A stretch of DNA of 44,069 bases from Clostridia bacterium (GTDB lineage: Bacteria; Bacillota; Clostridia; Christensenellales; Borkfalkiaceae): the NCBI GenBank assembly GCA_017466825.1, contig JAFTTJ010000007.1:1-44069 (forward strand), written 5' to 3'. Made by a program: the position numbers and the translations under genes. Shown here in pieces: positions 17,569 to 43,258 of this stretch (position 1 is its first letter; every line of letters starts with the position of its first letter). The notes under the pieces are model-generated. The model was not told the origin of the DNA. It saw nothing but the letters and a program-made list of their open reading frames with translations, and did not search any database.

Positions 17569-20556
17569 TTATTTAACGGTTACAGTATAAGACTTAAAGA
17601 CGTAGTTGCCAGCATCGTCCCATACCATATATTTTACAACGTATTCGCCTGCAATACTTGCAACGAATTGTCCGTCTTTAACTTGGACGTTTCTTCTATC
17701 AGGGGTTTCAACGCTAACGAAAACGTTTACCTTTTCGCTCACGTCATCAGTAGCGGTATGCTGAGCAATCGTAATCGTTTCGCCTACGCTCGCTTCGGTC
17801 GTAGCAACTGATAATTTAACTACGGGAGCGACGGTATCCTTTGCGGTTACGTAGTAAGAAACGATCTTTTCTTTACCGAATCTATCTATTGCTTTAAATT
17901 CGATATAATAGTCGCCGTAAGATGAAAGAACTACTTCGTAAGATGCGGTCGGGTTTGCCGTTCCGTCCAACTTAGTTCCGTCTTTTGCGGTTGCGAAATT
18001 GCCGTTAGGATCGTTTACTTTTAAAGTAAAATCAATTGCGTTAGATAAAACGTCTGCTGCAAAAGCGTTGGCAATAACAATAGAATCGTTTAAAGATCTG
18101 TCGCCGATTATTGCGTCCGCTAAAATTTGAGGAGCGGCTCTATCTCTATCAGCGTCGTTAAGACTTTGTCTATTTAAATTTTTAAGGTGAATTGCGCTCT
18201 TCGCCATAACGTTCATTTCAATCGAAAGGTACGCTAAGTCACCGTTAAAGCCTTCAAACGGTCTGCCGTCTAAATAGGTAGTTACGTTTGCGTATACCAT
18301 TGCGCTACCGTATAATACGCCGTTTGAATAGGTAATCATAAAGTTTTTGCTGTCGCTGATAAACGACGCGTCTACGCTTACGTATTCGCCGTCGTTTAAA
18401 GCAAACGCCGCGCTACCATCCGGATTTCGACGGTAAGAAGCCTTTATTTGTTTAGTAGAATCTGCTACGTCGGTAAAGTATACGTCAATAGTATTTACTG
18501 CGTTTAGATCCTCGTCAACGACGAAAGTCATATAGAAATCTCTAACTTGAACGCGGTTTACAAATTCTACTTTAGATCTCTTAGATGCGGTTAAGATTAC
18601 CGCATTGTCGTTTGCGCTAACTTCTACGTCGCCTGAAATAGGCTTGAAGAACTTTTCAATATGCAAATCGTCGCCGTCAAATACGGAAATAACGGGTACT
18701 TTTACAGACTTTTGATTAGTTCTACCGCTTACGTCAACGCGATATATAATTTCGGTCGTGCCTACTTGAGAAGGCGCGTATTTGTTGCTCGTTAATTCTA
18801 CTTCTGCTCCGCCGTTTTCCTTAACGTAAATCTTGGTTTGTTTCTCTTTTACGCTACCGCTTGAAAAATCGTGACCATAGATTGTGGGAAGAGTTATTTC
18901 TTCGCCTTGAATTAAGTACTTGGGCAATACGACGTCTTCAAAAATTTGCGGAGTCATATTGCGAGTAGAAGTATATTCAAAAGATATAGTTTCAGTCTTT
19001 ACGTAGTCGCTAACGGTTACTACTACTTGGTGAGCGCCGTCAGTTAAAGGCATATAAGAATATACGCCGTCTTCGGGTAAAATTTCTTGTCCGTCTACGG
19101 TAACCGCTACTTTGATCTCACCTGAAACGTTATCGCAAACGATTTCGCTGAACAAGGCTTCCGCTTTACCTGTTTTACCCTTTTCGGCTTGACCTACGAG
19201 TTCAACGGAAAGACCGCTTCCGTTTACCGCTTCGACTTCAATATTCTTTACGGAACGTTTACCCATTCTGTCGACTGCCGAATACACGATAGTATAAACG
19301 CCTGCCTTACGGGGAATAAACTTACCGTCGATTATTCCGCAAACGGTTTGATTTTCCTTACCGTAATTATAGTAAACGTGAACCGCTACGTCTTTTGCTC
19401 CTTCGTGAGCGTCGAAAGCGCTTGCGTTAAACACTTTAAATTCTTTGTCTACTAAAGCGTGAGGAAGGTTATTTTCGTCTACGTCAACGCTGATTATGGG
19501 CGCAACGTCCGTGCTAACCGATTGCTTGGGTTTAGCGCCGTCGATTTCAGTAATAACAACGCCCATGGTTTGCGATTTAAAATCTACGCCGGTAATACTC
19601 ATGCGCACTTTGCCAGACTCGAAACCTTTCCAAGGATTGAAGAATGTGTCTGAGTCGTCAAATTGAGCAATCATATTGCTACCCGAATAAATCTGATCGG
19701 TAGTATACGCTGCAAGCGTTGCATAATCGTAAGAAAGGGTTAAAACGTCGTAACCTAACGCAATATCAGCGGGAGAACCTGCCATGGTGAATAATACGGG
19801 GAAACCGTACACGTTGTTGACGTGGAAGTTAGAACCGCTGGGAGCGTTTTCCCATCCGCCGGGGATTTGATCAGTCGCGCCTGCGGTAAGATACGATTGT
19901 CTTAAAGCCCAGTCGCCGTATTCGGCAACGTTTTTAACGTATATGCTAAAATAATTATTATCGTCGTAAATATCCGTAAAAGTAACGACCATTTCGGACA
20001 CGTCGGCAGCGCCCTTGCTTGCAGTAAACATAGAGAAAGTTACCAAGGCGTCGTTTTTAGTATTGTCCGAAATATCGATAATTTCGTCATAGATAAACTT
20101 ATCGCCGTTTGCAAGGTTTAAAACTACGCCTTCAAGCGCGGGGAGCGCGGCGTGGCTACCGTAGTAAACGGACGATTTTTCGCCGCTTACTTTGTAAACT
20201 TGCTTACTTACCGTAAATGTTTTTACGGCTTTAATCTTGTTACCGCCGACGGTTGCAGTATATACGAGTTCGTAAACGCCTTCTTCGTTTAAAACGACGG
20301 GCGATTTATCCATCGCTTTACCGCTTGGGAAAACGAGATACGCGTATTCGCTATCAACGACCGTTTCACCAACTTTAATTTGCGCTTTGGGGAAGGTGAA
20401 AACTTTGTTTATAGAATACTCTTCTTGTATATAAACGTTTTCGACGGTAGCGGCGCTGGCGTTGCCAATATTAGCAAGACCTATTCCGCCTGCTAAAAAG
20501 ATGCAAAATGCAAGCGTAAGCGACGCTATAATGCCTAATTTTTTAGTACTTTTCAT
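17569..20556 (-). CDS. Giant secreted Ig-like/LamG-like protein coupled to the transporter (operon B)
   Basis: A 995-residue exported protein with an Ala-rich signal peptide ending near NASAA. The visible order is an N-terminal Ig-like domain (about 36-115), a LamG-like beta-sandwich (about 120-340), several Ig-like domains, a second LamG-like sandwich (about 640-820) and two C-terminal Ig-like domains. The last of these reads DTVAPVVKLSV...TDDVSEKV, typical of DUF5011/cadherin-like repeats. No catalytic motif, lipobox or LPxTG sorting signal is seen. Its ribosome site AAAGGAG overlaps the stop region of the MalG-type permease, only 4 bases before it. The 1016-residue gene in operon C has the same architecture and position. 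Likely a surface or secreted binding partner of the importer (inference). Confidence 0.82.
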   Translation of the reverse strand: MKSTKKLGIIASLTLAFCIFLAGGIGLANIGNASAATVENVYIQEEYSINKVFTFPKAQIKVGETVVDSEYAYLVFPSGKAMDKSPVVLNEEGVYELVYTATVGGNKIKAVKTFTVSKQVYKVSGEKSSVYYGSHAALPALEGVVLNLANGDKFIYDEIIDISDNTKNDALVTFSMFTASKGAADVSEMVVTFTDIYDDNNYFSIYVKNVAEYGDWALRQSYLTAGATDQIPGGWENAPSGSNFHVNNVYGFPVLFTMAGSPADIALGYDVLTLSYDYATLAAYTTDQIYSGSNMIAQFDDSDTFFNPWKGFESGKVRMSITGVDFKSQTMGVVITEIDGAKPKQSVSTDVAPIISVDVDENNLPHALVDKEFKVFNASAFDAHEGAKDVAVHVYYNYGKENQTVCGIIDGKFIPRKAGVYTIVYSAVDRMGKRSVKNIEVEAVNGSGLSVELVGQAEKGKTGKAEALFSEIVCDNVSGEIKVAVTVDGQEILPEDGVYSYMPLTDGAHQVVVTVSDYVKTETISFEYTSTRNMTPQIFEDVVLPKYLIQGEEITLPTIYGHDFSSGSVKEKQTKIYVKENGGAEVELTSNKYAPSQVGTTEIIYRVDVSGRTNQKSVKVPVISVFDGDDLHIEKFFKPISGDVEVSANDNAVILTASKRSKVEFVNRVQVRDFYMTFVVDEDLNAVNTIDVYFTDVADSTKQIKASYRRNPDGSAAFALNDGEYVSVDASFISDSKNFMITYSNGVLYGSAMVYANVTTYLDGRPFEGFNGDLAYLSIEMNVMAKSAIHLKNLNRQSLNDADRDRAAPQILADAIIGDRSLNDSIVIANAFAADVLSNAIDFTLKVNDPNGNFATAKDGTKLDGTANPTASYEVVLSSYGDYYIEFKAIDRFGKEKIVSYYVTAKDTVAPVVKLSVATTEASVGETITIAQHTATDDVSEKVNVFVSVETPDRRNVQVKDGQFVASIAGEYVVKYMVWDDAGNYVFKSYTVTVK

Positions 20557-20560
20557 AAAA

Positions 20561-21454
20561 TTACTCCTTTAATCCGCCCATCGAGATATTCGACATAAGA
20601 CGTTCCGAGAAAATTATAAACAATATTAAAATGGGTATTACCACTATAATACAACTCGTCATTCTAAGCGGTACGGTTTCAAGACCGTGCATGTAAAGTT
20701 GCGACATATAGAACGAGCCGTAAGCAATGGTAGGATATGCAGGGAAATAAAGGTGTGGGGTTTGATAATCGTTCCAAAATTGGATAAAGTATATCAAAAA
20801 TACCGTAAAGAAGATATTGCTGACGAGCGGAAGAATTATTTTAAACATTACCGTGAACTCGTTTGCTCCGTCGAGTTCAGCAGCTTCGGAATAATCGCCC
20901 GAAAGCCTTTCAAACGTTGCGTGGAAAACTAGGAAATACATTCCTAAAAAGTTTGCCTTTTGTATCCAAGCCCCATACATAGTATTGTAAAGCCCCAAAT
21001 TTTTAAGCATTACTATTTCGGACGGGTACGAACCTACGATTGGAATCATCATGGCAACGAGTACCGTGCCGTATATAATTTTACTGAAAACGTTGGGAAA
21101 TTTTGCAACGACGTAAGCCGTTAAACAAGGAGTTACCGTTGCAATGAGCGAACATCCTATTACGTACATCAAGGTGTTTATAAGCATACCCCAAAGGTCT
21201 ACGGTGAACGCTCTGCCTTCATAAACGGCGTCGGCGTGGAATAGATTTAATACGTAAGGATAGTTATCGAAAGCCCAACCGAATTCAAAACTCGGCAAGC
21301 CTAAAACGTTGTTTCTAAAATCGTCTATATTTTTGACCGAAGTCATCATACCCCAAATAATGGGTATTAAAATACAAGCGCAATAAACTATAAGTATTAT
21401 TATAGACGCAATGGCTAAACTGTTTATTTGTATCTTTTTCTTAGTCTGTACCAT
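20561..21454 (-). CDS. ABC sugar transporter permease, MalG type (operon B)
   Basis: A 297-residue CUT1-type permease with about six hydrophobic segments. The ATPase-coupling motif reads EAAELDGANEFTVMFKIILP and the C-terminus is GGLKE. It begins 12 bases after the stop of the MalF-type permease, with a strong GGGGGG ribosome site. The giant Ig/LamG protein follows after 4 bases, so the two are likely translated together. No ATPase gene is present. The substrate is not evident from sequence. Confidence 0.9.
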   Translation of the reverse strand: MVQTKKKIQINSLAIASIIILIVYCACILIPIIWGMMTSVKNIDDFRNNVLGLPSFEFGWAFDNYPYVLNLFHADAVYEGRAFTVDLWGMLINTLMYVIGCSLIATVTPCLTAYVVAKFPNVFSKIIYGTVLVAMMIPIVGSYPSEIVMLKNLGLYNTMYGAWIQKANFLGMYFLVFHATFERLSGDYSEAAELDGANEFTVMFKIILPLVSNIFFTVFLIYFIQFWNDYQTPHLYFPAYPTIAYGSFYMSQLYMHGLETVPLRMTSCIIVVIPILILFIIFSERLMSNISMGGLKE

Positions 21455-21466
21455 ATTGCACCCCCC

Positions 21467-22366
21467 TTAATCAACGCTCGGGCCACACTTGTCGAGCAAG
21501 TATTTAGCCAAGAACGCAACGGGTATAGTTATGAACGTAAGCACGAGACCGAACGCCGAATAATAGGGGTACTCGGTTGAGAGCGCGCCTAAAACGTTGG
21601 TATACATCCAATAACCTATCGTGTAGATATTGATATCGGGTGCGCCTGCGCCGTACATGTTGAACACGTTCATTTGATTTAAGAATATTTGAGCGATACT
21701 CGAAACGATAAATACCGAAATGGTGGGGAATATCATGGGAATATCAATCAAAATCAACTCTTTTATAGGGGTTATGCCGTCTAAAACCGCGGCTTCGGTA
21801 ATAGACTCTGAAATACCGCTCATTGCGCCGCTAAAAATAAGCGTTTGAACGCCGAATGAAAGCATTACCGACATAAAGATAAAGGTCGGTAATTTCGTTG
21901 CGGGATTTGTCAATAACTCTATGCCTATAATCGCCTTTGACGCTTCAGTCGTAAAGTAACGAAGCATAATTGCGAGAGTTACCGCCGAAACGACGTTGGG
22001 TATAAAGAGTACTACCTTGAAAAAGCCGTAGCCGAAATGTTTCTTATATATATAATAAGAAAAGAGCAAAGCCAAAGTCGAACCGACCGCTACGCCGACT
22101 ACGAACAAAATTAGAGAGTTCTTCATTGAAACGATAAGTTTAGGGTCGGTAAACAAATCGGTAACTACTTTTACAAAGTTGCCAAACCCAAACTCGTACG
22201 TTTCCGTAAGTCCATCCCAATTTTGAAATGCAAGTATTATTGAGTTTATGTTGACGCCAACGTAAAAAATAGCAAACTGAACGACGGGTATTGCTACGAT
22301 ACAAGCGTAAAACAACACCTTACTCCATGCTATTTTCGTTTTTGCGCCCGTTTTTGCTAAAGACAT
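21467..22366 (-). CDS. ABC sugar transporter permease, MalF type (operon B)
   Basis: A 299-residue CUT1-type permease with about six hydrophobic segments. Its coupling motif reads EAAVLDGITPIKELILIDIP, and it ends in CGPSVD, like the CGP/YGP-type ends of the MalF-type proteins in operons A and C. A 106-base gap with a strong hairpin (22394-22415) separates it from the binding-protein gene. This arrangement often allows more binding protein than permease. GGAG precedes the ATG. Confidence 0.9.
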   Translation of the reverse strand: MSLAKTGAKTKIAWSKVLFYACIVAIPVVQFAIFYVGVNINSIILAFQNWDGLTETYEFGFGNFVKVVTDLFTDPKLIVSMKNSLILFVVGVAVGSTLALLFSYYIYKKHFGYGFFKVVLFIPNVVSAVTLAIMLRYFTTEASKAIIGIELLTNPATKLPTFIFMSVMLSFGVQTLIFSGAMSGISESITEAAVLDGITPIKELILIDIPMIFPTISVFIVSSIAQIFLNQMNVFNMYGAGAPDINIYTIGYWMYTNVLGALSTEYPYYSAFGLVLTFITIPVAFLAKYLLDKCGPSVD

Positions 22367-22393
22367 TAGTTTTCTCCAAAAAATTCTTCCGAC

Positions 22394-22415
22394 GCGACGG
22401 TTATAAAACCGTCGC
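22394..22415 (-). terminator. Hairpin between binding-protein and permease genes (attenuating or stabilising)
   Basis: A perfect 9-base-pair stem, GCGACGGTT (22394-22402) with AACCGTCGC (22407-22415), and a 4-base loop. On the minus strand a T-run follows only after 11 bases (GTCGGAAGAATTTTTT), so it is at best a weak terminator. It could protect the 3' end of a short binding-protein mRNA, as hairpins do between malE and malF. Confidence 0.5.
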
Positions 22416-22472
22416 GCGGTATAATAACGTGGTTTGCAATAAACGATAGTTTACGGTTATCGTTTTATAAAA

Positions 22473-24134: not shown

Positions 24135-24246
24135 AACAATTTTACTCCTAATTTAGTAACTTTTTTTATGATGTTTGCTAGATTTTAATTTGCTCTTTTT
24201 GAAAAAAAGGGCGCAAAAAACCAAGCGTAAACCATTATCATCTAGT

Positions 24247-24275
24247 ATTATATATTTCTTTTGGCAGTTTTTCAA
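24247..24275 (-). promoter_or_regulatory. Promoter of operon B
   Basis: On the minus strand TTGAAA (24270-24275), a 17-base spacer and TATAAT (24247-24252) form a strong sigma-A-like promoter. Transcription would start near 24240, giving a leader of about 105 bases. It faces away from the AraC promoter 41 bases to the right, so an AraC dimer between them could control both. Confidence 0.7.
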
Positions 24276-24316
24276 CCACTATATATTCAAAATATTGCAC
24301 TAAATAATTATTTTTG

Positions 24317-24345
24317 TTGACTTTTGGTAAAATAAGTGATATTAT
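24317..24345 (+). promoter_or_regulatory. Promoter of the divergent AraC gene
   Basis: TTGACT (24317-24322), a 17-base spacer and TATTAT (24340-24345) lie 23 bases before the AraC start codon on the plus strand. The short leader carries a GGGGGT ribosome site. Confidence 0.7.
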
Positions 24346-24368
24346 AAGCATATAAATGGGGGTGTACT

Positions 24369-25334
24369 ATGACCATTATTGACAAGAAAAATAAACTTGA
24401 CGGAAAAGTTGGTAAAGACATAAATATCTACGAGTTTTACGACAGTCAAAACAAACGTTTTAACGGCACGGCGGAATGCGGTTACGAGTTTTACGACAGC
24501 AAAACTTCGACGGTTAAAATGCACACGCACGACTACTACGAGTTCTTTTTGGTTACCGAAGGGGATTTAGATCACGAAGTAAACGGTAAAATTCAAAAAC
24601 TGCAAAAAGGCGACTTGGTTTTCGTTAGGGATTTCGATATTCACAGGCTTGTACCGTCGCCTAAAAGGTTTACTTGGATAAACGTAAACTTTTCAATGCG
24701 CACCTTTAACGATATTTTGCAGTTTTTAGACTTCCCCGAACTTAAAAAGACTCTTCTTTCCCCCGAATTGCCACCCGTAGTCAGACTCTCGCCCGTACAG
24801 GCGGAGCGCTGTATTAAAAAGACGAAGGTCATGGAAAATATTGCAAAAAAGAACAACAGCTTTTTCAAGTTGGAAGTGCGCAAACAATTATTGCACATAT
24901 TTTCGACTTTCTTCTTAAAAAACGACAAGCGAAACTTCTTACCCGAGTGGCTCGACACCCTTTGCGTTAAGATGCGCGACTTTGAAAACTTCTCGGTCGG
25001 CGCTAGCAGAATGTACGAATTAAACCCAAAGAGCAAGTCGCACCTAATTAAGAGTATGCAACAATATTTAAATACTACCGTTTCGGACTTTATAAACGAA
25101 CAACGAGTAAACTTTGCGACCGAACAACTCATAAACACCAACCTGCCCGTAATTGACATTGCGCTAGACTGCGGTTTTAATAACGTAAACTACTTTTATA
25201 GATTGTTTAAAAAAGTGCACGGAGATACGCCTCATTCCTACCGTAAAAAGTATTCCGTAATAGCCAACCTTTCTTACTCGCTCGGCACTAACAAAAACGA
25301 GCATGAAAAAAACCGCGACGACAAAAAAATATAA
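24369..25334 (+). CDS. AraC-family transcriptional regulator (divergent from operon B)
   Basis: A 321-residue regulator, the only plus-strand gene. An N-terminal cupin-like sensor domain (about residues 50-100) contains HTHDYYEFFLVTEGD and LQKGDLVFV. The C-terminal region holds two helix-turn-helix motifs, the second in IALDCGFNNVNYFYRLFKKV, followed by GDTPHSYRKKY. About 23 charged residues trail after the usual family end. Its gene is back-to-back with operon B, the classic position for a local activator responding to the imported sugar. It ends before a strong bidirectional terminator at 25450-25484. The ligand is unknown. Confidence 0.9.
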   Translation: MTIIDKKNKLDGKVGKDINIYEFYDSQNKRFNGTAECGYEFYDSKTSTVKMHTHDYYEFFLVTEGDLDHEVNGKIQKLQKGDLVFVRDFDIHRLVPSPKRFTWINVNFSMRTFNDILQFLDFPELKKTLLSPELPPVVRLSPVQAERCIKKTKVMENIAKKNNSFFKLEVRKQLLHIFSTFFLKNDKRNFLPEWLDTLCVKMRDFENFSVGASRMYELNPKSKSHLIKSMQQYLNTTVSDFINEQRVNFATEQLINTNLPVIDIALDCGFNNVNYFYRLFKKVHGDTPHSYRKKYSVIANLSYSLGTNKNEHEKNRDDKKI

Positions 25335-25449
25335 AATTTTATCTATTATATAATTATTATTTTTGCTACGGCAAAAATTATTAAAAAGGCTATATCCCAG
25401 CCTATAACTGATTAAATTTAAAGGGGATTAGACGTGAAAGAGCAATTAA

Positions 25450-25484: not shown

Positions 25485-25501
25485 GTTTTAAAAGTACGCT
25501 T

Positions 25502-28535: not shown

Positions 28536-28536
28536 A

Positions 28537-30237
28537 TTAATCTAAATATAATTCGTCTTGAATAAAGAGCAAGGTAAAGCAAGACGTCCAGTTGAAATCG
28601 CTAATAGCGTGAACGTGTTTACGCCAATCGGGCGGAGTCGTGGGCTTGCCCTTTCTCTCACACTCGTAGGGGTAAATTTTATCCCGCGAGTCGTAAAACT
28701 CGTATACTACACCCGTCTTTTTATACCATTTGTAAACTGCTTGCAATGTCTTTTGCTTCAACTCTTGAGCAAGTTCGTCGTAGCCGTATTTATATAACCC
28801 TTTAATGACGAAATAATTTAAGTTGAGCCACGCGCCGCCACGCCACATATCCGTGCCGTACATAGGATGGGTTTTAGCAACCGTCGCCAAAGGAAGTTCA
28901 GTCCAAAGCAAATCGGGATTAGTGAGCGCTTTTACCATCTTTTGGGCTTGTTCTTTACTAGGAACGCCAACCATCAAAGGAATAAAACTCGACGGCGTTA
29001 AAACTTTTGTAAATTGACCGCTAAAAAGTCTATCGTAATAAACCCCGTCTTCTTCGTCCCACAAGTTGGCGTTAATTTGAGCCTTTAAGTAGTCGCTATA
29101 CTCCTTCCACTCTCCACTCTTTTTATGGTCGCCGAGTTCTGCGTAAATTTTAGCCAGATACTCGCTGTCTTGCGCTTGGAAAGCAGAAAAGTCCATTGCG
29201 TCCATATTTTCATCAAACTCAAATCGGGGGGAATTGTCTTGACCGGACTCGCCCGACTTGCAGTTAGTGTACTCAGATTCAACTAGCCACTCTAAAAGAC
29301 CGTTGCCATTTTTATCTCGGTTTAACCTATCCCAAGTCAAATAGGCGTCGAGTTTTTTAACGCATTCTTTTAAAAACTCTTTATCGCCCGTCTTTTTGTA
29401 AACTTCCCACGTGCCCCACGCTAAAACTTGGGGCTGTGTTTCGTCGGTGTGGGCGTAAGGGTTGACCATTGACGAAATAAAGCCGTTGTCGTCGGCGCGA
29501 GAAAGCACCGAGCGAATACAGTCTTTAGCCATATCTTTATCGTAAGTAGCAAAGGCAAGGGCGTGGAAAACGCTATCCCAAAGCCACATTTGTCTGTGCG
29601 GAACTCTATCGGGCGTTGTCCACCTACAAGTGAATTTACCTTCGGCAGTATGAACGTTCACCTTTTGAACGGAAAGGGCTTTATAATACAATCTTTCATA
29701 TTTTTTATTTTTGCACTTGGGCTTATTTTTAAAATACGCGTATCTTTCAGCCTTTAAACTTTCCACGTCAGCGTCTATCCAACTCTTCGCCGAGCATCTT
29801 GCAAACCCGTACGAAGCCATCGAGTGAGAAATAGCAAACTTAAATAGCCCGTTTTCCATTTGACGGTAAACGACAGAAATGGCGTCGTCTAAATTAGTGT
29901 AAACGTCCGCGCCCAAAGTCTTTTGATATTTTAACTTTTTTTGCCCGATTATTTTAGGCAATACGGGGGAATAACCAACGAGAGTATCCATATCCGCAAA
30001 GGTCATAAAAAAGTCGCCGTCTGGCGTCGTTGCGTCTATCATATCGCCCGAGATCGCGTTAAAACGGACTCTGCCTTTTACGGGGAAATACACCTTAATC
30101 CACTCTCTAAGTTCAAAGCGAACTTCAATTTTACGCCTTGTGAGAGTGCCTACAAAATCGTTGTAGTAACGGTTTTTTCCGTCTAACCCGGAAAACCCGA
30201 AGAGTTGTCCGTAACCCCAAACGTTGTGAAGTTTCAT
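28537..30237 (-). CDS. GH63-type glycosidase with an (alpha/alpha)6 barrel
   Basis: A 566-residue cytoplasmic enzyme of the GH63/mannosylglycerate-hydrolase-like group. The predicted general acid is D221 in RQMWLWDSVFHALA, and the likely base is E513 in GVVYEFYD. Between them lies the conserved MWRGGAWLNLNYFVIKGL. An N-terminal beta-sandwich of about 160 residues precedes the barrel. Known members cleave alpha-glucosidic or alpha-mannosidic links, including 2-O-alpha-mannosyl and glucosyl glycerate. A strong promoter at 30283-30311 starts operon D here, and AGGAG precedes the ATG. Proximity to a GH38 alpha-mannosidase favours an alpha-mannose- or glucose-containing substrate (inference). Confidence 0.85.
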   Translation of the reverse strand: MKLHNVWGYGQLFGFSGLDGKNRYYNDFVGTLTRRKIEVRFELREWIKVYFPVKGRVRFNAISGDMIDATTPDGDFFMTFADMDTLVGYSPVLPKIIGQKKLKYQKTLGADVYTNLDDAISVVYRQMENGLFKFAISHSMASYGFARCSAKSWIDADVESLKAERYAYFKNKPKCKNKKYERLYYKALSVQKVNVHTAEGKFTCRWTTPDRVPHRQMWLWDSVFHALAFATYDKDMAKDCIRSVLSRADDNGFISSMVNPYAHTDETQPQVLAWGTWEVYKKTGDKEFLKECVKKLDAYLTWDRLNRDKNGNGLLEWLVESEYTNCKSGESGQDNSPRFEFDENMDAMDFSAFQAQDSEYLAKIYAELGDHKKSGEWKEYSDYLKAQINANLWDEEDGVYYDRLFSGQFTKVLTPSSFIPLMVGVPSKEQAQKMVKALTNPDLLWTELPLATVAKTHPMYGTDMWRGGAWLNLNYFVIKGLYKYGYDELAQELKQKTLQAVYKWYKKTGVVYEFYDSRDKIYPYECERKGKPTTPPDWRKHVHAISDFNWTSCFTLLFIQDELYLD

Positions 30238-30546: not shown

Positions 30547-30557
30547 TATCGACTTAT
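30547..30557 (-). repeat. Partial inverted copy of the intergenic repeat at the GH38 stop codon
   Basis: On the minus strand the last codons and stop of the GH38 gene read GCCTGTATAAGTCGATAAAA, matching the repeat consensus GCCTATAAGTCGATTAT except for an extra G and the final bases. It faces opposite to all other copies and includes the TAA stop codon. Confidence 0.4.
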
Positions 30558-32953
30558 ACAGGCATTTTATCATGAACAACTTTTGCTACACCGTCTTTGA
30601 CGACGACTGTTACGACTTCGCCCGCGCCCGCCGCTGCACAAGTTGCAGCCTTGCCGACCGTAAGCGTAAATTCTTCTTCGGTTTGGGCTGGGTTGTAGAT
30701 GCGGACGACGTATTCGCCGTTTTCGTTATGGTGACAGTTGGTCATAGTAACTTTTCCGTCTAAGCATACGTTTAAATATTTTTGATTTTCTTTTCCCGTT
30801 GGGAAAACGTTTACTGCGTACGGCTTTTGGTTAAATACTTCGGCTTCTTTATAAATTTCGTCAACACTACCGCGCATAACCCTAAAATTAAAAGTGTATC
30901 TACCGCAGTCAATTCTAGGCAAATATCTATCTTCCGGGTAAAGCGGAAGCCCTGCTATCGGATGGAAACAATATCCTGCGCCACGCAAGAGAGTAAGATG
31001 AATATAACCATCTTCTACCTTGCCTGCGTAAACGCCGTCGTTTATTACCGAGAATATCTCACCGCTTGCGTTTTGCACGCCAAACCACTTTTGGAATACG
31101 CACTCGCAGTTGGGTTTTTGCTCGAAAACGAAAGGTCCGTCGCCAACAACTTTTCCGCCGATAAATTCTTTAGGAAGGGGGATTTTTACCCTTATCAATT
31201 TATTCTTTTCGGCAAACTCAACCGTAGCCTTTAAGTCTACGTACGAGTGATTTTTATATTTTTTAATCTGCATTACGGCGTTCGACTTACCGTTGGTATA
31301 CAACCCTTCGCAAGCCGTTAAAATCTCGCCGTCTTCAATTATTCTCTCTGCCGAAAATCCGCTACTTAAAGCGCAAAAATCCGCAGTTTCTTCTCTCGTC
31401 ATTTGTCTTAAAGCAACGGGGTTTTCACCCATTGCAATAAGTTCTTTTTCGCTCATACCCCACGGGTCTGCGGTGTCGTCGTACACTTCAAAAATAGGCT
31501 TTTTAAGCCCCATAAATTCTTCAAGGTCACACTCTCTCGCAGGCGTAAACATGGGTGTTCTGGGAACTTTACTAACTTTAATTTCAAATCTCATCATTGA
31601 CGTGGGGGCAAGTTTACCTTCGAAAACGACCTTTTTACGCCAATCGAGATTGAGAGTCGACTCTTCCTTAATAGTTTGACAAGGAATTTCTACGCCGTCG
31701 GAGTACACGTGTGGAATATAGCGAATTTCTTCGTCCCAGTTTTGATTTTCAAGCATAAACTCGACTTCTATCGGCGCAGTTACTTCGTAGGGCGCATAGT
31801 TGAATACGAATATAGGGAATTCGCCCGCTTCGGCGTGTTTTTGCCCCATTGCCATACGCAAAAACACCTTAGTGCGATAATCACGTGCAATTTTTTCGGC
31901 AAGAGAAATTGCGCAAAGCCCTTCTCTTTCCCCTTCTTCTACTACCGTGCCAGGCAAAACGTCGTGGAAGGTGGTAAACAAAATCTTCTTTTCCGCCGAT
32001 TTCATATCCGCCGTGTCGAAAGAAATGCCGTTGAGTTTTGCAACTGCCAACATTTTTTCGGTTGAATAGAAGATATTTTCAGCCCGCCTAAACCCTTGTT
32101 TTATCTTAGCCATTGACGAATAACACCCCGGCATACAAGTAATAAGCGAAGACTTAACTTCACCCGAAACCTTAATATCGTCCGCAAAAAGGGCTTCGGG
32201 GGTGCTATGCTTGATTTCAACGCCGTCGATTTTAAGTTCGGCAATATCTCTTAAATCCTTTCTTGAAGGACCACCGCCGTGGTTGCCGACGCCCCAAAGG
32301 GAATAGTCTACGTCTTCCATGCCGTAACGGTCTTTTTTGCCTGCGTCCGAGCCGAGCATCCACATGGGATTACCTTCAACTTCGCTTTTTATCTTTTTAA
32401 CGGCTTCGCCAAGCCAAGTTCCGTAAGACTCGCTATGAGTCACCACGATAGAACTTCCGTCGGGTGAAGTCCATTTGAAAAACCTACCCGGATAATTAAA
32501 CTGCCTAATATTAGGACGGCAAGCCATATATCCGACGTAGCCGTTTTTAACTAAAATTTGGGGTAAGCCTACGCTATGACCGAAAGCGTCGAAATTGTAA
32601 GCAACGGTAGGCTCTACGCCGAATTTTTCCTTAAAATAAGCCTTTCCTACACTAATTTGTCGCACCAGAGTTTCACCCGACGGCAAGTTGCAGTCAGGTT
32701 GAAGATACCATCCGCCTACGATTTTCCATTTGCCCCTTTTAACCAAGTCCTTTATTCTCTCGAACAGTTCGGGGGCGCTCTCTTCAATGGCTTCGTAAAG
32801 CATTGCTTCGTTATGGCAAAAGATATAATCGAACTCTTCAGCCAAATCCGCAGCCGACTTAAAGGTCGCTATCGCCGTGGAAACGCCTTCGTCCCAAGTC
32901 CATTGCCAAACGGGATCAATATGAGCGTTGCAAATTAAGTGTAATTTTTTCAT
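30554..32953 (-). CDS. GH38 alpha-mannosidase
   Basis: A 799-residue zinc-dependent retaining alpha-mannosidase of family GH38. Zinc ligands and catalytic residues are visible: His11 and Asp13 in NAHIDPVWQW, the nucleophile Asp122 in YNFDAFGHSVGLPQIL, and His330-Asp331 in FHDVLPGT. The central helical domain and C-terminal beta domains complete the usual length for bacterial members. There is no signal peptide, so it acts on imported mannosides or glycans in the cytoplasm. It is the last gene before a terminator, 120 bases after the TIM-barrel-like gene, and AAAGGAT precedes its ATG. Its last codons include a degenerate copy of the intergenic repeat. Confidence 0.93.
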   Translation of the reverse strand: MKKLHLICNAHIDPVWQWTWDEGVSTAIATFKSAADLAEEFDYIFCHNEAMLYEAIEESAPELFERIKDLVKRGKWKIVGGWYLQPDCNLPSGETLVRQISVGKAYFKEKFGVEPTVAYNFDAFGHSVGLPQILVKNGYVGYMACRPNIRQFNYPGRFFKWTSPDGSSIVVTHSESYGTWLGEAVKKIKSEVEGNPMWMLGSDAGKKDRYGMEDVDYSLWGVGNHGGGPSRKDLRDIAELKIDGVEIKHSTPEALFADDIKVSGEVKSSLITCMPGCYSSMAKIKQGFRRAENIFYSTEKMLAVAKLNGISFDTADMKSAEKKILFTTFHDVLPGTVVEEGEREGLCAISLAEKIARDYRTKVFLRMAMGQKHAEAGEFPIFVFNYAPYEVTAPIEVEFMLENQNWDEEIRYIPHVYSDGVEIPCQTIKEESTLNLDWRKKVVFEGKLAPTSMMRFEIKVSKVPRTPMFTPARECDLEEFMGLKKPIFEVYDDTADPWGMSEKELIAMGENPVALRQMTREETADFCALSSGFSAERIIEDGEILTACEGLYTNGKSNAVMQIKKYKNHSYVDLKATVEFAEKNKLIRVKIPLPKEFIGGKVVGDGPFVFEQKPNCECVFQKWFGVQNASGEIFSVINDGVYAGKVEDGYIHLTLLRGAGYCFHPIAGLPLYPEDRYLPRIDCGRYTFNFRVMRGSVDEIYKEAEVFNQKPYAVNVFPTGKENQKYLNVCLDGKVTMTNCHHNENGEYVVRIYNPAQTEEEFTLTVGKAATCAAAGAGEVVTVVVKDGVAKVVHDKMPV

Positions 32954-33073: not shown

Positions 33074-34468
33074 CTAATAAATAAGCATGCTTTCGCCTGC
33101 GGGAATAACCACGGAAACGTCGCCTTGCATAAAAGATTTCTTTCCGTTTTGAATAACCGTGTTTTCGCCTTGAACGCTAACGGTTGCGCGGGCTTTAATA
33201 AGCGTAGAATTGTTGACGATAAAGTATGCTTTTTTGCCGTTTTCTTGCTTGAAAACGCCTATAAAAAGTTGAGTGTTCGTAGTAATTTTGGGTAACCTTT
33301 CGCCGTACTGACACCAATCGGGAAGCCATCCCGTATAAAGGGCGTCGTTGTCGGGCAAAACGCTTACGTCTACGCCGTCGAAACCGTTGTGGTAATCACC
33401 GATGGTGGCAACGCCCAAAAACTCGCTATTGAGCAATATGGGAGCAAAGGCTTGCATATCCGCTAAAAGTTCCTTTGCGTAATCGGCGTACATAGTAGGC
33501 TTGCCGTAGGCGTCGACGAGTCCGCAAATACCGCCCTTGCCGTATTCCCATTGCGACGGCGGATTATCCAAAAAGTCGTTGGGAAAAACGCCGGGGAAAA
33601 AGGTGAAACCTTCGTGCCCGTAGGCAAGCGTTATATTCATTTGCAACGCCATTTCGGCGCGGGTATTTAACCTAACTTCGTCGTCCCAATAGCCGACTTG
33701 AATATACTGATAGGACTTCATGCCCCTGTTTTTCTTTTTATAATCGGCAAAAATTGAGTTTAATTCGTATACACCGCGGTGCACGGAAGTGGGAATATGA
33801 CGCCACGCCCAACCAAAGGGATAGAAATCGGTAGTCAAATATTGCGGATGAACTAAATCGATGTATTTATCGATCAATAAGCGGTATCTGTTGAAACGGT
33901 TTTCCGACTTACACTCTAAATCGCCCGTCAAAACGCGGTAACCTTCGGCTTTTTCTCCGCCGAAAAGATGAGCGTCGCTAAAACAATAGTTTAAGTTGTT
34001 ATAATGAAATTCCTTATCGGGGTATTTTTCTAAAAAGAGTTTTTGAGCGTCGGCAATGCCTTCGATTGCGCCGTAGGCGCTTTCGTCCCCAAAATAAATA
34101 CCGCCGAAACTATCGTGTTTGCTAAGACTTGCAACCTGCCTTAAAAATTCTTCGCCGATAGCCTTTTTTTCTTCGTCCGTTCGACTAGCATAAGTAACGC
34201 CGTCTTTTACGTGATAACCGCCCGTTATAGCCAAATACTGCTCGTAAATACGTAGGCGCGGAAAGTAGTTTAAGCCCAATTCGTCGCAGATATTAAGGGC
34301 GTCTACTACGTAATTCCAACCGTAACTATCTTCAAAATGCCCAAAGACGTTATCTACGCCAACGTCTTTTAAAATTTGGTAAACCTCCTTAGTCAAACGA
34401 TTTTTATATTCGCCCTTTGGGGGATACGGCGGACAATATACCGCAGTAAAAAATCTATCTTTTTTCAT
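33074..34468 (-). CDS. Unidentified TIM-barrel-like protein, possible glycoside hydrolase
   Basis: A 464-residue protein without a signal peptide. I do not recognise its family. The first 350 residues look like a (beta/alpha)8 barrel, with repeated strand-end motifs: VDNVFGHFEDSYGW, GGIYFGDESAYG (a candidate acid/base Glu after a beta-strand), LTTDFYPFGW, QYIQVGYWDDE and EGFTFFPGVFP. The last 90 residues form a beta-sandwich typical of glycosidase C-termini (AYFIVNNSTLIKARATVSV). Its place between a DUF4838 lipoprotein and a GH38 alpha-mannosidase suggests a cytoplasmic glycosidase. It follows a strong hairpin, and AAGGAAT precedes its ATG. Function is inferred from context only. Confidence 0.7.
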   Translation of the reverse strand: MKKDRFFTAVYCPPYPPKGEYKNRLTKEVYQILKDVGVDNVFGHFEDSYGWNYVVDALNICDELGLNYFPRLRIYEQYLAITGGYHVKDGVTYASRTDEEKKAIGEEFLRQVASLSKHDSFGGIYFGDESAYGAIEGIADAQKLFLEKYPDKEFHYNNLNYCFSDAHLFGGEKAEGYRVLTGDLECKSENRFNRYRLLIDKYIDLVHPQYLTTDFYPFGWAWRHIPTSVHRGVYELNSIFADYKKKNRGMKSYQYIQVGYWDDEVRLNTRAEMALQMNITLAYGHEGFTFFPGVFPNDFLDNPPSQWEYGKGGICGLVDAYGKPTMYADYAKELLADMQAFAPILLNSEFLGVATIGDYHNGFDGVDVSVLPDNDALYTGWLPDWCQYGERLPKITTNTQLFIGVFKQENGKKAYFIVNNSTLIKARATVSVQGENTVIQNGKKSFMQGDVSVVIPAGESMLIY

Positions 34469-36592: not shown

Positions 36593-36604
36593 TTTTCTAC
36601 CCCC

Positions 36605-39600: not shown

Positions 39601-39655
39601 CCGTTAAGACCGCAACAACCGCTATGATAACGAAAATAAGAATTTTCTTTTTCAT
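36605..39655 (-). CDS. Giant Ig-like/LamG-like exoprotein coupled to the transporter (operon C)
   Basis: A 1016-residue protein with an N-terminal hydrophobic segment (about residues 5-28) that could be a signal peptide or a membrane anchor, then an acidic linker. The rest follows the plan of the 995-residue protein of operon B: Ig-like, LamG-like sandwich, several Ig-like domains, second LamG-like sandwich (about 670-850) and two terminal Ig-like domains. The last reads DDVAPTVKV...TATDNVDGELTV. No catalytic motif, lipobox or sorting signal was recognised. Its ATG overlaps the stop of the MalG-type permease by one base (TAATG), so translation is directly coupled. Likely a surface glycan-binding partner of this importer (inference). 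Confidence 0.82.
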   Translation of the reverse strand: MKKKILIFVIIAVVAVLTAGVCLIVGLSGNSGEESAPPQEENSEMDLTGEKSIVSPLNDNIGVYSTIDVNKCYGICNGYKFACKAEITTPSGQVKAVDSTYTATEEGEYTVKLTSLIGGEKVEKTVSVLASGYSAQALFTMSNASFLQDCKPVAENLTTDIRTGVQFLLEANNSTVSFKPVINLNDLADGSLSSIIEFTTNANSEYLPDLRGLRVVLTDVYDSTNKVAVSFTMSESIFYLERPAAIEEGTASVPALKAEWNGYAIGDSSNYTAEPGKTYPFGCSFYPQLHLTASHTLVFDPMTVYFNNAENTVTTAKGQLVYDLDNPADSFADFKGFTTGEVYVSIESTGTSGDIVITKIGNYEFDKIGLDSYKTANDNLLLSGYDFDNALDGIVGYAYPLPKALMGDAVQTKIYKINGDSEDEIAFDGSFVPSQAGEYAIVCSSTNSYGYSAQVKGYFTVLQSPVAITSPSATLTAKLLDVWKVPDLSFGGGIGDISLEYKFKKGDSEILVNPGDAFEIDEKGEEIRLSVIATDAMGYSQTFDFPVEVDCNFMHFELVDTYDTVSVCAGSYVTVPNYVAIDYSKEDVSINNVDITIRQGKTKVLQAGQQIEVKADSVISYYAGSTLVKTFTIRCLEEFIEGKPVANQFKSSQGVNQIFTSKIGTAFRMSGETAKIEMPYVISSTNLFMQFSVFADMTASGEITATLTDVMGKELVYTLKHLGLSPTLWINGKQTYAKVTASKNVYSETDVGEFFGREYYTYSFVVEGAKACLYNGESLKIGDIDMWNNGLIYQGFEKGKVKLCFDVKGVNGAHFVLNRVSNQGFTSIHLGKGERIAPMIAFDSAFGAGSAQKDSIVKVPKAYAYDVFDSKAYVNMSIVAPNGEFLAKDLSANAFEFTANEYGIYRVTYEVKDSKGNKSNTNYLIVVTDDVAPTVKVNGEYEEEYRGSVKVLSATATDNVDGELTVKVWIEKSDMTTREVGMEQTVTLEKGEYVITYYAMDKNGNFAVKRFKIKVK

Positions 39656-40563
39656 TAACCTTTTAATCCTCCTACCGTAAATTTGGAAAGGATAAGTCCT
39701 TGCGACGCGCTATATAAAACTACGGTAGGGATAATAACCAAACTAAATCCCGCCATAATTTCGCCTATGGTCGCCTTATAAAGTTGCCTTGAAACACCTT
39801 GGAATTGATATAATCCGTAGGCAAGGTTGGGGGTATCGGGAAGCCAAATCATAAAGGTTTGGTAATCGTTCCACGATCCCAAGAAAGAGAGTACGAAAAT
39901 AACCGTTGCCGTAGGTAAAATCATAGGCAAAAACATTTTGAAAAACGCCGTAAAATCATTTCCGCCGTCTATAAACACGGCTTCGGCGTAGTCCCAAGGA
40001 AGGCTTTTAAACGCCCCGTAAAGCAATAGGAAGTTAGTACCCGAAAAACAGGTGGACGGGGACGTTATTATATGTAAAAACATATTATTGTAAACCCCGA
40101 GCGCATCCCTTACCATCATTGCCGACGGCAACGAGCCGATAATGGGAACTATCATTACGACTATACCGAGATTGTAGATAAAATTACTGCCAAAGAACTT
40201 ATATTTTGACAAGACGTACGCCATACAAGTAGTAAAAAATACGTTTATGAGCGACGAGCCGAGAGAATACAGCGTGCTAAACCCAAGCATATGGAAGACG
40301 TTGTAAATTACAAAATCGGTAATTCGTATTTGAAGTTTTTCAAACACACCCGAATAGTTTAAAAAGTAGAAATTTTCCGGCCAACCGAAGGAGTTGTTTA
40401 CGTATTCGATAGAGTTTTTAAACGACGTCAATATCATCCAGACGGGCAAGATTAAAAGGCTTATGCAGTAGACTATTAACACCACCAACATAATTGCGAT
40501 TAAAACTTTACTCACCACGTCTAAAACCCTAGGTTTTTGCTTTATTTTAATAGACTTTTCCAT
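39655..40563 (-). CDS. ABC sugar transporter permease, MalG type (operon C)
   Basis: A 302-residue CUT1-type permease with about six hydrophobic segments and a coupling motif of the form EAVFIDGGNDFTAFFKMFLP. It ends in VGGLKG. Both ends are coupled: its ATG overlaps the stop of the MalF-type gene and its stop overlaps the ATG of the giant exoprotein, each as TAATG. This ties membrane subunits and exoprotein to similar synthesis rates. No ATPase gene lies nearby. Confidence 0.9.
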   Translation of the reverse strand: MEKSIKIKQKPRVLDVVSKVLIAIMLVVLIVYCISLLILPVWMILTSFKNSIEYVNNSFGWPENFYFLNYSGVFEKLQIRITDFVIYNVFHMLGFSTLYSLGSSLINVFFTTCMAYVLSKYKFFGSNFIYNLGIVVMIVPIIGSLPSAMMVRDALGVYNNMFLHIITSPSTCFSGTNFLLLYGAFKSLPWDYAEAVFIDGGNDFTAFFKMFLPMILPTATVIFVLSFLGSWNDYQTFMIWLPDTPNLAYGLYQFQGVSRQLYKATIGEIMAGFSLVIIPTVVLYSASQGLILSKFTVGGLKG

Positions 40564-41510
40564 TATTGCACCTCCGTAGACGGTCCGTATTTTTCAAGTA
40601 AATGACGGACTAAAATTACGACGGGCGCAACGATTAGCGTCATGAGCAAACCGCCCGCAGCAAGCATGGGATAAGTCGTTTCGTTGGCATTTTTAACCAA
40701 TTTTGCATAATAATAACCCATATTATGTACGTAGTCTGGGGCGTTTGTTTCGTAAAAGGCAAGTATAGTACCCGCTTCGGTAAATATACCTGCAAGCCCC
40801 GTTATAAGGAAGGTTGAAAGGGTGGGGAAAATAAGAGGTAAAATTATATAAAACATTTCCTGAAACATATTGGAAACGCCGTCTAATTGAGCGCTTTCGA
40901 TAACTTCTGACGAAATTTCCTTCATGGCGTTGGGATAGACTATCAAACTCGTGCCGAAAGATATCCAAATGCCGTAAAATATAGTCGTCGCAAAGGCGGT
41001 TTTTTCGTTATAAAGTAAATCTATAGGCATACCGCTTTTATCGTCTATAAATATTTTCAGATGCGAAAAAAGCATTGAAAGGGGGGCGTCCGGACCGGAA
41101 ATAAAGTTGACGAAGAGCATACAGATAACGAACCCCGAAATGATTTGGGGCAGCATTACCACTATTCTAATAGCCTTGTGCATAAAGCATTGTTTAAAGA
41201 GCATGTACGAAAAAATCAGATAAAGTGGCATACAAATGACCAAATTGATCAAGTACATTCTGATTGAATTATACATACTCATACCGATAACGTTTCCCGT
41301 TTCAGTCAAGCCTTTTATGAAGGTTATAAAGTTGTCGAAATAGGCAAATTCCCACGTTCCGTCAAGTTTCACGTTAAAAAACGCCATACGGATTGAGTTT
41401 AAATTTACGAAGACGTAAAATATTAAAAACAATATGAGCGGATAGGAAATAAGGCTCAATATGAACAAAGTTCTAACTTTGTTGTGTGAAGACGCTTTCT
41501 TTCGTTGCAT
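40563..41510 (-). CDS. ABC sugar transporter permease, MalF type (operon C)
   Basis: A 315-residue CUT1-type permease with about six hydrophobic segments. The coupling motif is ESAQLDGVSNMFQEMFYIILP, and the C-terminus EKYGPSTE matches other MalF-type ends here. It lies 11 bases after the binding-protein stop with AAGGTGG before the ATG, so there is no hairpin between them, unlike in operon B. The substrate is not evident. Confidence 0.9.
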   Translation of the reverse strand: MQRKKASSHNKVRTLFILSLISYPLILFLIFYVFVNLNSIRMAFFNVKLDGTWEFAYFDNFITFIKGLTETGNVIGMSMYNSIRMYLINLVICMPLYLIFSYMLFKQCFMHKAIRIVVMLPQIISGFVICMLFVNFISGPDAPLSMLFSHLKIFIDDKSGMPIDLLYNEKTAFATTIFYGIWISFGTSLIVYPNAMKEISSEVIESAQLDGVSNMFQEMFYIILPLIFPTLSTFLITGLAGIFTEAGTILAFYETNAPDYVHNMGYYYAKLVKNANETTYPMLAAGGLLMTLIVAPVVILVRHLLEKYGPSTEVQ

Positions 41511-41521
41511 AGGTTACCACC

Positions 41522-43258
41522 TTATAAACTGTTTTTGATTGATGCTAAAAATTCTTTCCAAGTTGATTGACTATAATTACCTGCAACGCCGTTTACGACG
41601 GAAGTTACGTCGCCGTTACTCTTTAACGAGTTTAAAAGCGACTTAACACCCTTACAGGGAAGGAAGCCAACGTCCGCCATATAGCCTACCGCAGCGTACG
41701 GGAAAGGCGAACGGAGAAGGTCGGTAGCAGACGTCAAAACTTTGACGTTTGCGGTGTCTTGATACGCCAGATAACAGTTCCTTACAAACGGTGTCATTGC
41801 CGAGAGTTGGGCAGGCGTTAAGGAATATTTATAACCGCGGATAAGCCCCGTGTTTACGGTAGTGGTAGACAAGGCTTTTTCGGTTAAAGTAAAGGCGATA
41901 AAATCTTTAATTGCGGCGAGTTTTTCGGCGTCTGCTTGCTTTCTGACTGTGATTGCACCCGCTTCGGAAGACGCTATAACAGAACCGTGTCCGTTGCCAT
42001 CGATACCCTTTTGCCCTTCAATATTAGGCAAAAGCATCATTCTATAATCTACTTGACCGTAACCCTTACCGAAAGGCTCTGCCGACTTTAAAGTTTCCAT
42101 TGCTTCAAGTTCAAACCAGTTACCTTCGGCAATCATTGCAACGTAATCGGCTTGACCGATACCGCCTGCTATAAATCTAGCCTGCGCGTTTTGAACATAG
42201 TTGCCGTAAGTGTAGTAAGTTGGATCTTTATAGAAATACTCGTTTAAAAACTCGACTGCTCCCCTTACGCCCTTAACGCTGTGCGCAAGGTAGCCGTTAT
42301 TCCAGTCGATAACGACTTTAGAGCCGTCGTCTAAGGTGATTTCTTTGCCGTTGCTGTCGTATTTTGTCAAAGCGTCGTATGCGTCTAAACCGGCGTACTG
42401 AACGACGTATGCGTTGACGAGTTCGGAAACGTACTCGTCTTTAGTTGCATAGACGAACGCTTTGTTAGCAGCGTCCATTGCAACGATATTCTTTACCATT
42501 TCGTCAAAGTCTGCCATAGTTTGGGGCTGTCCGTCGTCGTAAGTACCGTATTTGCCGTCTTTACCGGCGATTAAAATTCTATCGCCCGATTTATAGTTAG
42601 TAGATCCCGTTGAAGACGAGAAAATTAAACTGCTACCCGAAACGTCGAAAGTAATTCCTTGAGCGGACAACTGACCTTTAACTTCCGCCGTATTGGGCGC
42701 GTAAGTTAAAAGCCCGAGTTCTAAAAATTTATCGTGGTCGTAAACAAGCCCCGTCATAGTGATACTATGGGGAAGCATATAACAACCGCTATACGAAAAC
42801 TTATCGGTAGCCGAATCGTATGAAACTTTTGACGCAACCTTTTGCCAATTGTCAAAATCCATAATTTTTTCACGAATAGTCAAGCCGTTTTCACCGTCGG
42901 GTTTAACGGATAACATATCGGTTAAATCTTCAAAATAACCTTTGTAAATGCCGGGCGAATAGTTGGGATCGCTACCGTAATAAACGTCGGTTATAGTAGT
43001 TCCCGCCGCAATTTGAGAAAGTTGATCGCCTGCCATATAGGTAGAACTTTCCTTTACCTTGACGGTATAATCGGGGTTGTCTTTCATCCAATCGGTCGCT
43101 AAATCTTTAAGCCATTGATAGCCGAAACCACTACCCGAAAAGGGTTCTACTACGATTTCGTATTTATTGCCCGTTTGGTCTTCACCACAACTCGCCACGG
43201 TTGAACCGAAAAGGGTAAGCGTAAGAATTATTGCTAAAATTTTAAAAAATCTTTTCAT
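41522..43258 (-). CDS. Extracellular sugar-binding lipoprotein (operon C)
   Basis: A 578-residue family 1 solute-binding protein with lipobox STVASCGED (Cys24). It is more diverged from the other two binding proteins but shares their unusual length and an acidic loop, GKDGKYGTYDDGQP (residues 232-245). The mature region starts with a typical EIVVEPFSGSGFGYQWLKDL segment. AAGGAG precedes the ATG, and a strong hairpin lies just before that site (43281-43308). It is preceded by a truncated surface-protein gene, so it may not be the first gene of its transcript. Ligand unknown; downstream GH38 and DUF4838 genes suggest a mannose-containing oligosaccharide (inference). Confidence 0.9.
   Translation of the reverse strand: MKRFFKILAIILTLTLFGSTVASCGEDQTGNKYEIVVEPFSGSGFGYQWLKDLATDWMKDNPDYTVKVKESSTYMAGDQLSQIAAGTTITDVYYGSDPNYSPGIYKGYFEDLTDMLSVKPDGENGLTIREKIMDFDNWQKVASKVSYDSATDKFSYSGCYMLPHSITMTGLVYDHDKFLELGLLTYAPNTAEVKGQLSAQGITFDVSGSSLIFSSSTGSTNYKSGDRILIAGKDGKYGTYDDGQPQTMADFDEMVKNIVAMDAANKAFVYATKDEYVSELVNAYVVQYAGLDAYDALTKYDSNGKEITLDDGSKVVIDWNNGYLAHSVKGVRGAVEFLNEYFYKDPTYYTYGNYVQNAQARFIAGGIGQADYVAMIAEGNWFELEAMETLKSAEPFGKGYGQVDYRMMLLPNIEGQKGIDGNGHGSVIASSEAGAITVRKQADAEKLAAIKDFIAFTLTEKALSTTTVNTGLIRGYKYSLTPAQLSAMTPFVRNCYLAYQDTANVKVLTSATDLLRSPFPYAAVGYMADVGFLPCKGVKSLLNSLKSNGDVTSVVNGVAGNYSQSTWKEFLASIKNSL

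Follow-up and report, generated by a model that had tools for sequence, protein, structure and literature searches.

A conserved five-gene block couples sugar importers to a large exoprotein and a DUF4838 lipoprotein in uncultured gut Clostridia, as a candidate unit for glycan capture and import

The window analyzed here, the whole 44,069-nt stretch of Clostridia bacterium contig JAFTTJ010000007.1 (GCA_017466825.1), contains two copies of a five-gene block, designated operons B and C. Both run on the minus strand with a common gene order, in which a solute-binding lipoprotein (BP) is followed by two CUT1 permeases (PF and PG), an exoprotein of about 1000 amino acids (aa) (EXO) and a DUF4838 lipoprotein (Table 1). 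An earlier note on this DNA had reported the shared order of diverged proteins and the tightness of the permease/EXO junction, overlapping in operon C and spaced by 4 bases in operon B, and both were verified on the open reading frames (ORFs). The span it gave for the block, 17569..43258, holds the operon genes as described and omits the operon B DUF4838 gene (15638-17560) that its own text named. Over their best segments, the B and C proteins share 24% (BP), 32% (PF), 33% (PG), 25% (EXO) and 22% (DUF4838) identity (E <= 8e-18), and because these identities are so low (22-33%) the block must be considered old.

A third copy of the importer genes, operon A, lies at 170-3741, with BP, PF and PG of the same clade as those of B and C. 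In the own genome (1.65 Mb on 39 contigs, 84% complete), six permeases of the PG clade score 381-429 bits, after which scores drop to 201 bits. EXO and DUF4838 genes lie downstream of five of them, in operons B and C and on contigs C24, C29 and C34, and the sixth is that of operon A. Contig C17 carries an EXO gene starting at base 208, followed by two DUF4838 genes. Since the nearest relatives of the operon A importer proteins and of the C17 EXO and DUF4838 proteins coincide among 95 sets (loci L092-L095 and L097), and since the importer, EXO and DUF4838 genes are contiguous at those loci, operon A and contig C17 are probably, to judge from these affinities, two halves of a single operon. The genome encodes at least six EXOs (6 of 23 candidates scored).

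EXO homologs were surveyed in the family, with a match threshold of E<=1e-20 and up to six candidates per genome scored, and in the order and phylum, with up to two scored, so that the counts are lower bounds. Matches were obtained in at least 56 of 121 family genomes (9 of 18 genera) and in at least 21 of 396 order genomes, where three matches (L186-L188) are weak and have no such unit around them. Among the 398 genomes of the phylum survey, EXO was found in the own genome and in none of the 397 others with the best two candidates per genome scored. Six relatives stem from metagenome-assembled genomes (MAGs) filed as 'Clostridia bacterium'; by their titles, the source of five is the gut of deer, goat, sheep or yak.

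In all, 100 neighborhoods were compiled, comprising 80 long family-survey matches (short or contig-edge ones being left aside), 16 from the order survey, the three weak matches and one locus with DUF4838 only (L189). L186-L189, which have no EXO above 200 bits, were excluded from the order count, which covers 96 loci in 54 genomes other than the own genome. Loci L029 and L030 are identical to L090 and L170. The exact BP-PF-PG-EXO-DUF4838 order on a single strand is conserved at 86 of these 96 loci, and at 94 the core gene that follows EXO is DUF4838; non-core ORFs between core genes, as in L155 and L164, were not scored as breaks. Of the ten remaining loci, L107 and L161 (start) and L168 (end) lie at contig limits, and L124, L171 and L173 have no importer nearby (see below). 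L113 (G112:C11) is a decayed copy, with a stop in EXO, a short PG, and PF and BP not found; at L145 the importer lies some 3 kb away and no DUF4838 gene follows EXO (L232 shows one ahead of its BP), and L150 and L151 retain the order but have their EXO matches split over two ORFs.

The association also holds when approached from the permeases. In 22 chosen EXO genomes, an EXO match was sought within 4 kb downstream of permease relatives, and it was found for 48 of the 51 relatives scoring at least 265 bits (within 800 bases for 44), for 4 of 7 scoring 250-265 bits and for 2 of 29 below 250 bits. DUF4838 occurs in 55 of 56 EXO genomes against 8 of 65 genomes without EXO (Fisher p 3e-24, kinship ignored). 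Trees of the five proteins, built from 93 sets and 53 sources (each of two named MAGs being treated as a genome in its own right), correlate in all ten pairs (r 0.64-0.82), values that none of 1000 within-genome label shuffles reached in any pair; the EXO-DUF4838 agreement (0.80) is comparable to that of the two permeases (0.78). These data outline a set of genes that have been inherited together, with one permease clade almost always followed by EXO.

The conservation of gene order and the linkage of this permease clade to EXO rule out a chance arrangement. The nearest EXO lies in the same genome in only one of 93 cases which, together with the divergence between B and C and the order kept at the 86 loci elsewhere, likewise rules out the recent local duplication that the earlier note had named as a refuting condition; its other such condition, EXO homologs lying mostly away from transporters, fails as well, the tabulated neighbors placing most of them beside transporters. 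No plasmid match was found for the operon B EXO (phages were not searched), and plasmid spread was not retained as an explanation. The five-gene unit is hence both real and old.

Table 1. Features of the window (positions are those of the 44,069-nt stretch).
Feature	Position	Strand	Evidence
Operon B BP, solute-binding lipoprotein, 553 aa	22473..24134	-	lipobox-like start, C20
Operon B PF, MalF-type CUT1 permease	21467..22366	-	PF00528 E 8e-6, slightly below cut-off; 32% identity to C copy
Operon B PG, MalG-type CUT1 permease	20561..21454	-	PF00528 E 5e-12; own-genome clade of six, 381-429 bits
Operon B EXO, secreted, 995 aa	17569..20556	-	1137 bits against EXO profile (itself a profile row)
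Operon B EXO domain LG1	19441..20142	-	profile E 1.2e-66, aa 139-372 (itself a profile row)
Operon B EXO domain LG2	18121..18693	-	profile E 8e-49, aa 622-812 (itself a profile row)
Operon B DUF4838 (GH163-like) lipoprotein, 640 aa	15638..17560	-	PF16126 E 5e-30; GH67 N-terminal domain E 5e-8; D295 conserved
Operon C BP, solute-binding lipoprotein, 578 aa	41522..43258	-	homologous to B copy, E 8e-18
Operon C PF permease	40563..41510	-	PF00528 E 8e-9
Operon C PG permease, stop overlapping EXO start (TAATG)	39655..40563	-	PF00528 E 6e-9
Operon C EXO, 1016 aa	36605..39655	-	1060 bits against EXO profile (itself a profile row)
Operon C DUF4838 (GH163-like) lipoprotein, 677 aa	34559..36592	-	PF16126 E 1.5e-32
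Operon A BP (third copy, truncated by contig end)	2017..3741	-	30% to B copy, E 2e-61; 56-60% to L092-L095, L097
Operon A PF permease	1083..2003	-	59-72% to L092-L095, L097
Operon A PG permease, 169 bases to contig end	170..1102	-	392 bits, in six-member clade; 67-72% to L092-L095, L097
AraC-type regulator, divergent from operon B	24369..25334	+	HTH_18 E 1e-18; AraC_binding E 1e-10
GH38 alpha-mannosidase between B and C, downstream of C, no visible signal peptide	30554..32953	-	Glyco_hydro_38N E 3e-47
GH63/MGH1-like glycosidase, accessory	28537..30237	-	PF22422 E 8e-52
Big_2 lipoprotein (component X, type often after DUF4838)	11329..11940	-	Big_2 E 1e-6; matches post-DUF4838 gene in C34 (L018), C24, L030-L032

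The domain plan of the exoprotein is the same in both operons, as the earlier note had described, with two domains of about 200 aa (LG1 and LG2) in identical order. In the operon C EXO these map to aa 160-398 (E 3e-27) and aa 643-841 (E 3.5e-17), using profiles built without this protein. The two domains are homologs, aligned by hhalign with 98.4% probability (E 8e-15), and match no Pfam family and no PDB chain above chance level, so that EXO contains a duplicated, undescribed domain. Ig-like stretches are present as well, and the operon C EXO matches the Pfam family Bact_surface_Ig-like; for the operon B EXO, Pfam gave nothing at E<=0.001. By a crude pattern, all 95 EXO sets (two of them duplicates) begin with a signal- or lipobox-like stretch, and none of the 95 has an LPXTG-like end.

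The LamG label that had been attached to EXO could not be maintained. LamG is absent from the families matched by 11 EXOs and from the results of profile searches, Laminin_G_3 (PF13385) has no match anywhere in the own genome, and comparison of EXO with LamG by hhalign returned a probability of 0.1-0.2% (with a thin LamG profile of 3 rows). LamG identity was consequently rejected, since neither Pfam nor PDB sequence search nor profile comparison supports it; a distant jelly-roll fold is possible. In EXO, 49 columns reach at least 80% conservation. They consist of G, D, Y, F, P, V, T and N only, and E, H, K, R, C and W are absent from them, a composition that speaks against catalysis and, within the limits of residue conservation, bears out the description of EXO as a probably non-catalytic protein.

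The DUF4838 lipoproteins of operons B and C share a GH67N + DUF4838 architecture and score 105 and 114 bits against PF16126 (cut-off 26.6). A lipobox is present in 76 of 95 sets. A DUF4838 domain-containing protein is annotated as GH163, described as an endo-beta-N-acetylglucosaminidase, in PMC9870897, and the GH163 enzyme of B. thetaiotaomicron is reported in PMC10154615 to be a cell-surface protein that strips complex N-glycans of their N-acetyllactosamine antennae, acting at GlcNAc-beta-1,2-Man. The block proteins resemble the CAZy GH163 family in their PF16126 domain, lipobox and predicted surface location; they differ in sharing only 23% and 18% identity with relatives from Parabacteroides and Burkholderia, and their activity is a prediction. 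On a Parabacteroides plasmid, the DUF4838 gene is flanked by GH3 and GH20 genes. Given the GH163 annotation of DUF4838, the lipoprotein could well have enzymatic activity, as far as its sequence allows one to say, and while its presence and position in the block stand as first reported, the role proposed for it has been revised.

To examine residue conservation, 115 rows comprising the block proteins and other DUF4838 ORFs at the loci were aligned. Asp295, Pro190, Tyr354 and Pro361 are invariant in all 115, and four Cys are conserved at 93-96%. A relative from Parabacteroides and one from Burkholderia also have Asp295; the Burkholderia relative does not keep the Cys cluster. DUF4838 proteins also exist in a giant form of about 1300-1960 aa, besides the block's own of about 650 aa, both in the own genome (C29:146938, C24:8610, C17:10079, C27:291) and at L093-L095 and L097. 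Upstream of the operon C BP, a minus-strand gene (43336-44069) is open to the contig end; of the 175 aa listed for its product, 173 align at 90% identity with a portion of a 975-aa DUF4838 ORF on contig C15.

The importer presents the components expected of the CUT1 class, namely a MalF/MalG-type permease pair, a sugar-binding lipoprotein and a MalK-type ATPase, the last represented by a single OB_MalK match in the 84%-complete own genome. The best NCBIfam matches of the operon B permeases are to MalG/GlcU and GlcT/UgpA, all below cut-off. A lipobox is present in BP in 84 of 95 sets. The operon B BP has no Pfam match at E<=0.001, and its NCBIfam matches are to CPR_0540 (E 9e-11) and to NgcE (E 1.5e-5), with scores that fall well short of the curated cut-offs; NgcE-type matches were obtained for 6 of 9 BP members. 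The solved structure nearest to the BP profile is 9h0n (E 7e-22), deposited together with 9h0o and 9h0p for the study of Blon_0883 (PMC12345172), a B. infantis protein that binds lacto-/galacto-N-biose. The PG loop between membrane segments 1 and 2 has a median of 49 residues in EXO-linked permeases (n=94) and of 40 in unlinked ones (n=35), with overlapping ranges (42-107 and 33-53; kinship ignored), and the remainder of the protein is not longer in the EXO-linked group (252 versus 255 residues). EXO might be an obligate extracellular partner that docks on this enlarged outer loop and hands glycan cut by the GH163-like lipoprotein straight to BP, the whole forming a Gram-positive capture machine and the repeated EXO domain being a new glycan-binding domain, a proposal that we put forward as tentative and rather doubtful.

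Our preferred reading, held with moderate confidence, is that the block serves uncultured gut Clostridia of a single order as a unit for capturing and importing glycans, with a substrate of N-acetylhexosamine (HexNAc) type. A capture-and-import function is likely for the unit, within which glycan binding, cutting and physical contact are steps that we infer, and some copies probably have a HexNAc substrate. According to this model, EXO, with its Ig-like domains and its two ~200-aa copies, would reside on or near the membrane and hold the glycan, which the DUF4838/GH163-like lipoprotein would trim or cut outside the cell, probably, given its family, at a beta-linked N-acetylhexosamine. The released oligosaccharide would pass to the solute-binding lipoprotein and through the two dedicated permeases, with import powered by a shared MalK-type ATPase encoded elsewhere, for which one gene was found. 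Inside the cell, changeable enzymes (GH38, GH130, GH112, GH20 or GH2) would complete the breakdown.

The genes surrounding the block bear on its substrate. Among 205 of 207 chosen ORFs (two EXO-like ones were dropped) in block neighborhoods, and within the first 25 of 134 and of 97 neighbor families, several fit the use of HexNAc or N-glycans: GH38, GH130, GH112, GH20 (GH20C), SIS and the DHDPS family. A GH13 gene also lies near the block in the window.

Several observations weigh against this reading. The neighboring enzymes are highly mixed and also include GH1, GH3, GH31, GH36/melibiase and GH94; because of this mixture a HexNAc substrate does not apply to all copies, and a wholly N-glycan substrate for all of them was dropped. 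GH38 is found in 36 of 56 EXO genomes and 11 of 65 others, a comparison limited by being a genome-level count, not one of adjacency, and by ignoring kinship. The BP matches are confined to the first ~180 residues and fall far below curated cut-offs. Agreement among trees is not proof of contact, because it is expected of any stable operon. One strong importer (L229, 366 bits) has no EXO within 10 kb, and three loci (L124, L171 and L173) have EXO and DUF4838 with no importer within ~6.4 kb upstream. Finally, Asp295 is the sole invariant acid among the DUF4838 rows, with no second one, and catalysis by this protein is for that reason not assured.

The last point is also among those that favor a generic module for surface capture and import, in which DUF4838 would be a non-catalytic, glycan-binding relative of GH163 and specificity would vary from copy to copy, the neighboring enzymes revealing which glycans, those of plants as well as of the host, are used. 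The constancy of the core amid changing enzymes is consistent with this alternative, as is mean pairwise identity, lower in DUF4838 (27%) and EXO (24%) than in the permeases (36%). The invariance of Asp295, Tyr354 and Pro361 in 115 of 115 rows, with Asp295 retained in two relatives from other phyla, is nonetheless more than a drifting binder would seem to need, and the characterized GH163 is an enzyme; we regard the generic module as unlikely. It is quite improbable that EXO is no capture protein and instead belongs to an undescribed class of enzymes (lyases, hydrolases or proteases): its ~200-aa domains without family match leave room for a novel activity, but the residues making up its 49 conserved columns argue against one. 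Least probable is that EXO and DUF4838 are envelope or adhesion proteins that merely share a promoter with a sugar importer and play no part in uptake, for which the three loci lacking a nearby importer and the secreted Big_2-linked proteins that come next at 68 of the 96 loci can be adduced, against a specific permease clade, a near-invariant order, concordant trees and, in the own genome, five of six clade permeases with both genes downstream and the sixth truncated by the contig end.

These Big_2-linked proteins, encoded after DUF4838, form a group of 82 members (185-2628 aa) defined by single-linkage BLAST, which may join unlike proteins, and few of its members were checked with Pfam. At 14 loci (L101, L127, L131, L138, L142, L143, L144, L146, L147, L149, L153, L154, L182 and L183) an EXO-like gene precedes BP, and this gene never occurs together with a Big_2-linked gene after DUF4838 (0/14 versus 58/68, with both sides readable; p 9e-10). 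ORFs matching the AraC-type genes of the window were found in 30 of the 96 neighborhoods, one of them confirmed with Pfam; on the operon C side the contig ends too soon.

Downstream of operon C lie a 464-aa protein, GH38 and the GH63/MGH1-like glycosidase, an arrangement partly shared by L028. The 464-aa protein (33074-34468, minus strand) has no Pfam or NCBIfam match and is kept beside the relative of operon C at L028 (9148-10542, phmmer 8e-282); it is possibly an undescribed glycosidase. Downstream of operon B (8376-11237, 13369-15531 and 11959-13215, minus strand), two secreted proteins are 67% identical and have a module of about 150 aa in common with a third. This pair arose by recent local duplication, next to a block that is itself ancient.

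In the SusCDEF systems of Bacteroidota, one or more surface capture proteins are encoded beside the transporter, in many diverged copies per genome. Their likeness to the block is one of role only, as the ten block proteins yielded no Pfam match to SusC (TonB-dependent) or SusD and the block importer is an ABC transporter; we infer, as the earlier note did, that EXO and DUF4838 serve the importer and that the system is Sus-like in spirit. The pneumococcal EndoD belongs to GH85, another family than GH163. As described in the available part of PMC5215778, EndoD and NgtS-P1-P2 resemble the block in combining an extracellular endo-enzyme that frees N-glycan fragments with an ABC importer made of a binding protein and two permeases, NgtS being likened to the block BPs by system description and not by sequence. 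They differ in that the EndoD gene lies apart from the importer genes, and that part of the paper mentions no giant exoprotein.

Another parallel is provided by Gram-positive polysaccharide utilization loci (gpPULs), defined in Sheridan 2016 (PMC5320581) by a transport system, at least one polysaccharide-degrading enzyme and a regulator. Two of these three parts are present here: BP and two permeases in operons A, B and C, with one OB_MalK match, and the AraC-type gene beside operon B. For the enzyme, there is the DUF4838/GH163-like protein in the unit, with GH13, GH38 and GH63-like genes nearby, and activity on polysaccharides is a prediction. The likeness, an ABC importer, relatives of glycan enzymes and an AraC-type regulator at one locus, concerns operon B. 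According to the section of PMC10318527 on this subject, gpPULs lack surface glycan-binding proteins of the Bacteroides type, for which the carbohydrate-binding modules of enzymes often substitute; here, a ~1000-aa protein of a single family is fixed between a permease and a GH163-like gene. No title on such a unit was found by the searches made of openly licensed papers. The block is best read as a variant of Gram-positive PUL in which a conserved surface protein of its own and a GH163-like lipoprotein are tied to the importer, perhaps directed at HexNAc-containing glycans.

A fixed and tightly spaced pair of EXO and GH163-like genes is thus attached to importer after importer, with at least six EXOs in the own genome, in contrast to gpPULs as that section portrays them (PMC10318527). 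If the capture role holds true, the block would represent a Gram-positive counterpart of Sus-type capture and EXO would define a new family of carbohydrate-binding domains, which would also offer a handle on the diet of uncultured gut Clostridia, perhaps comprising host N-glycans and mucin.

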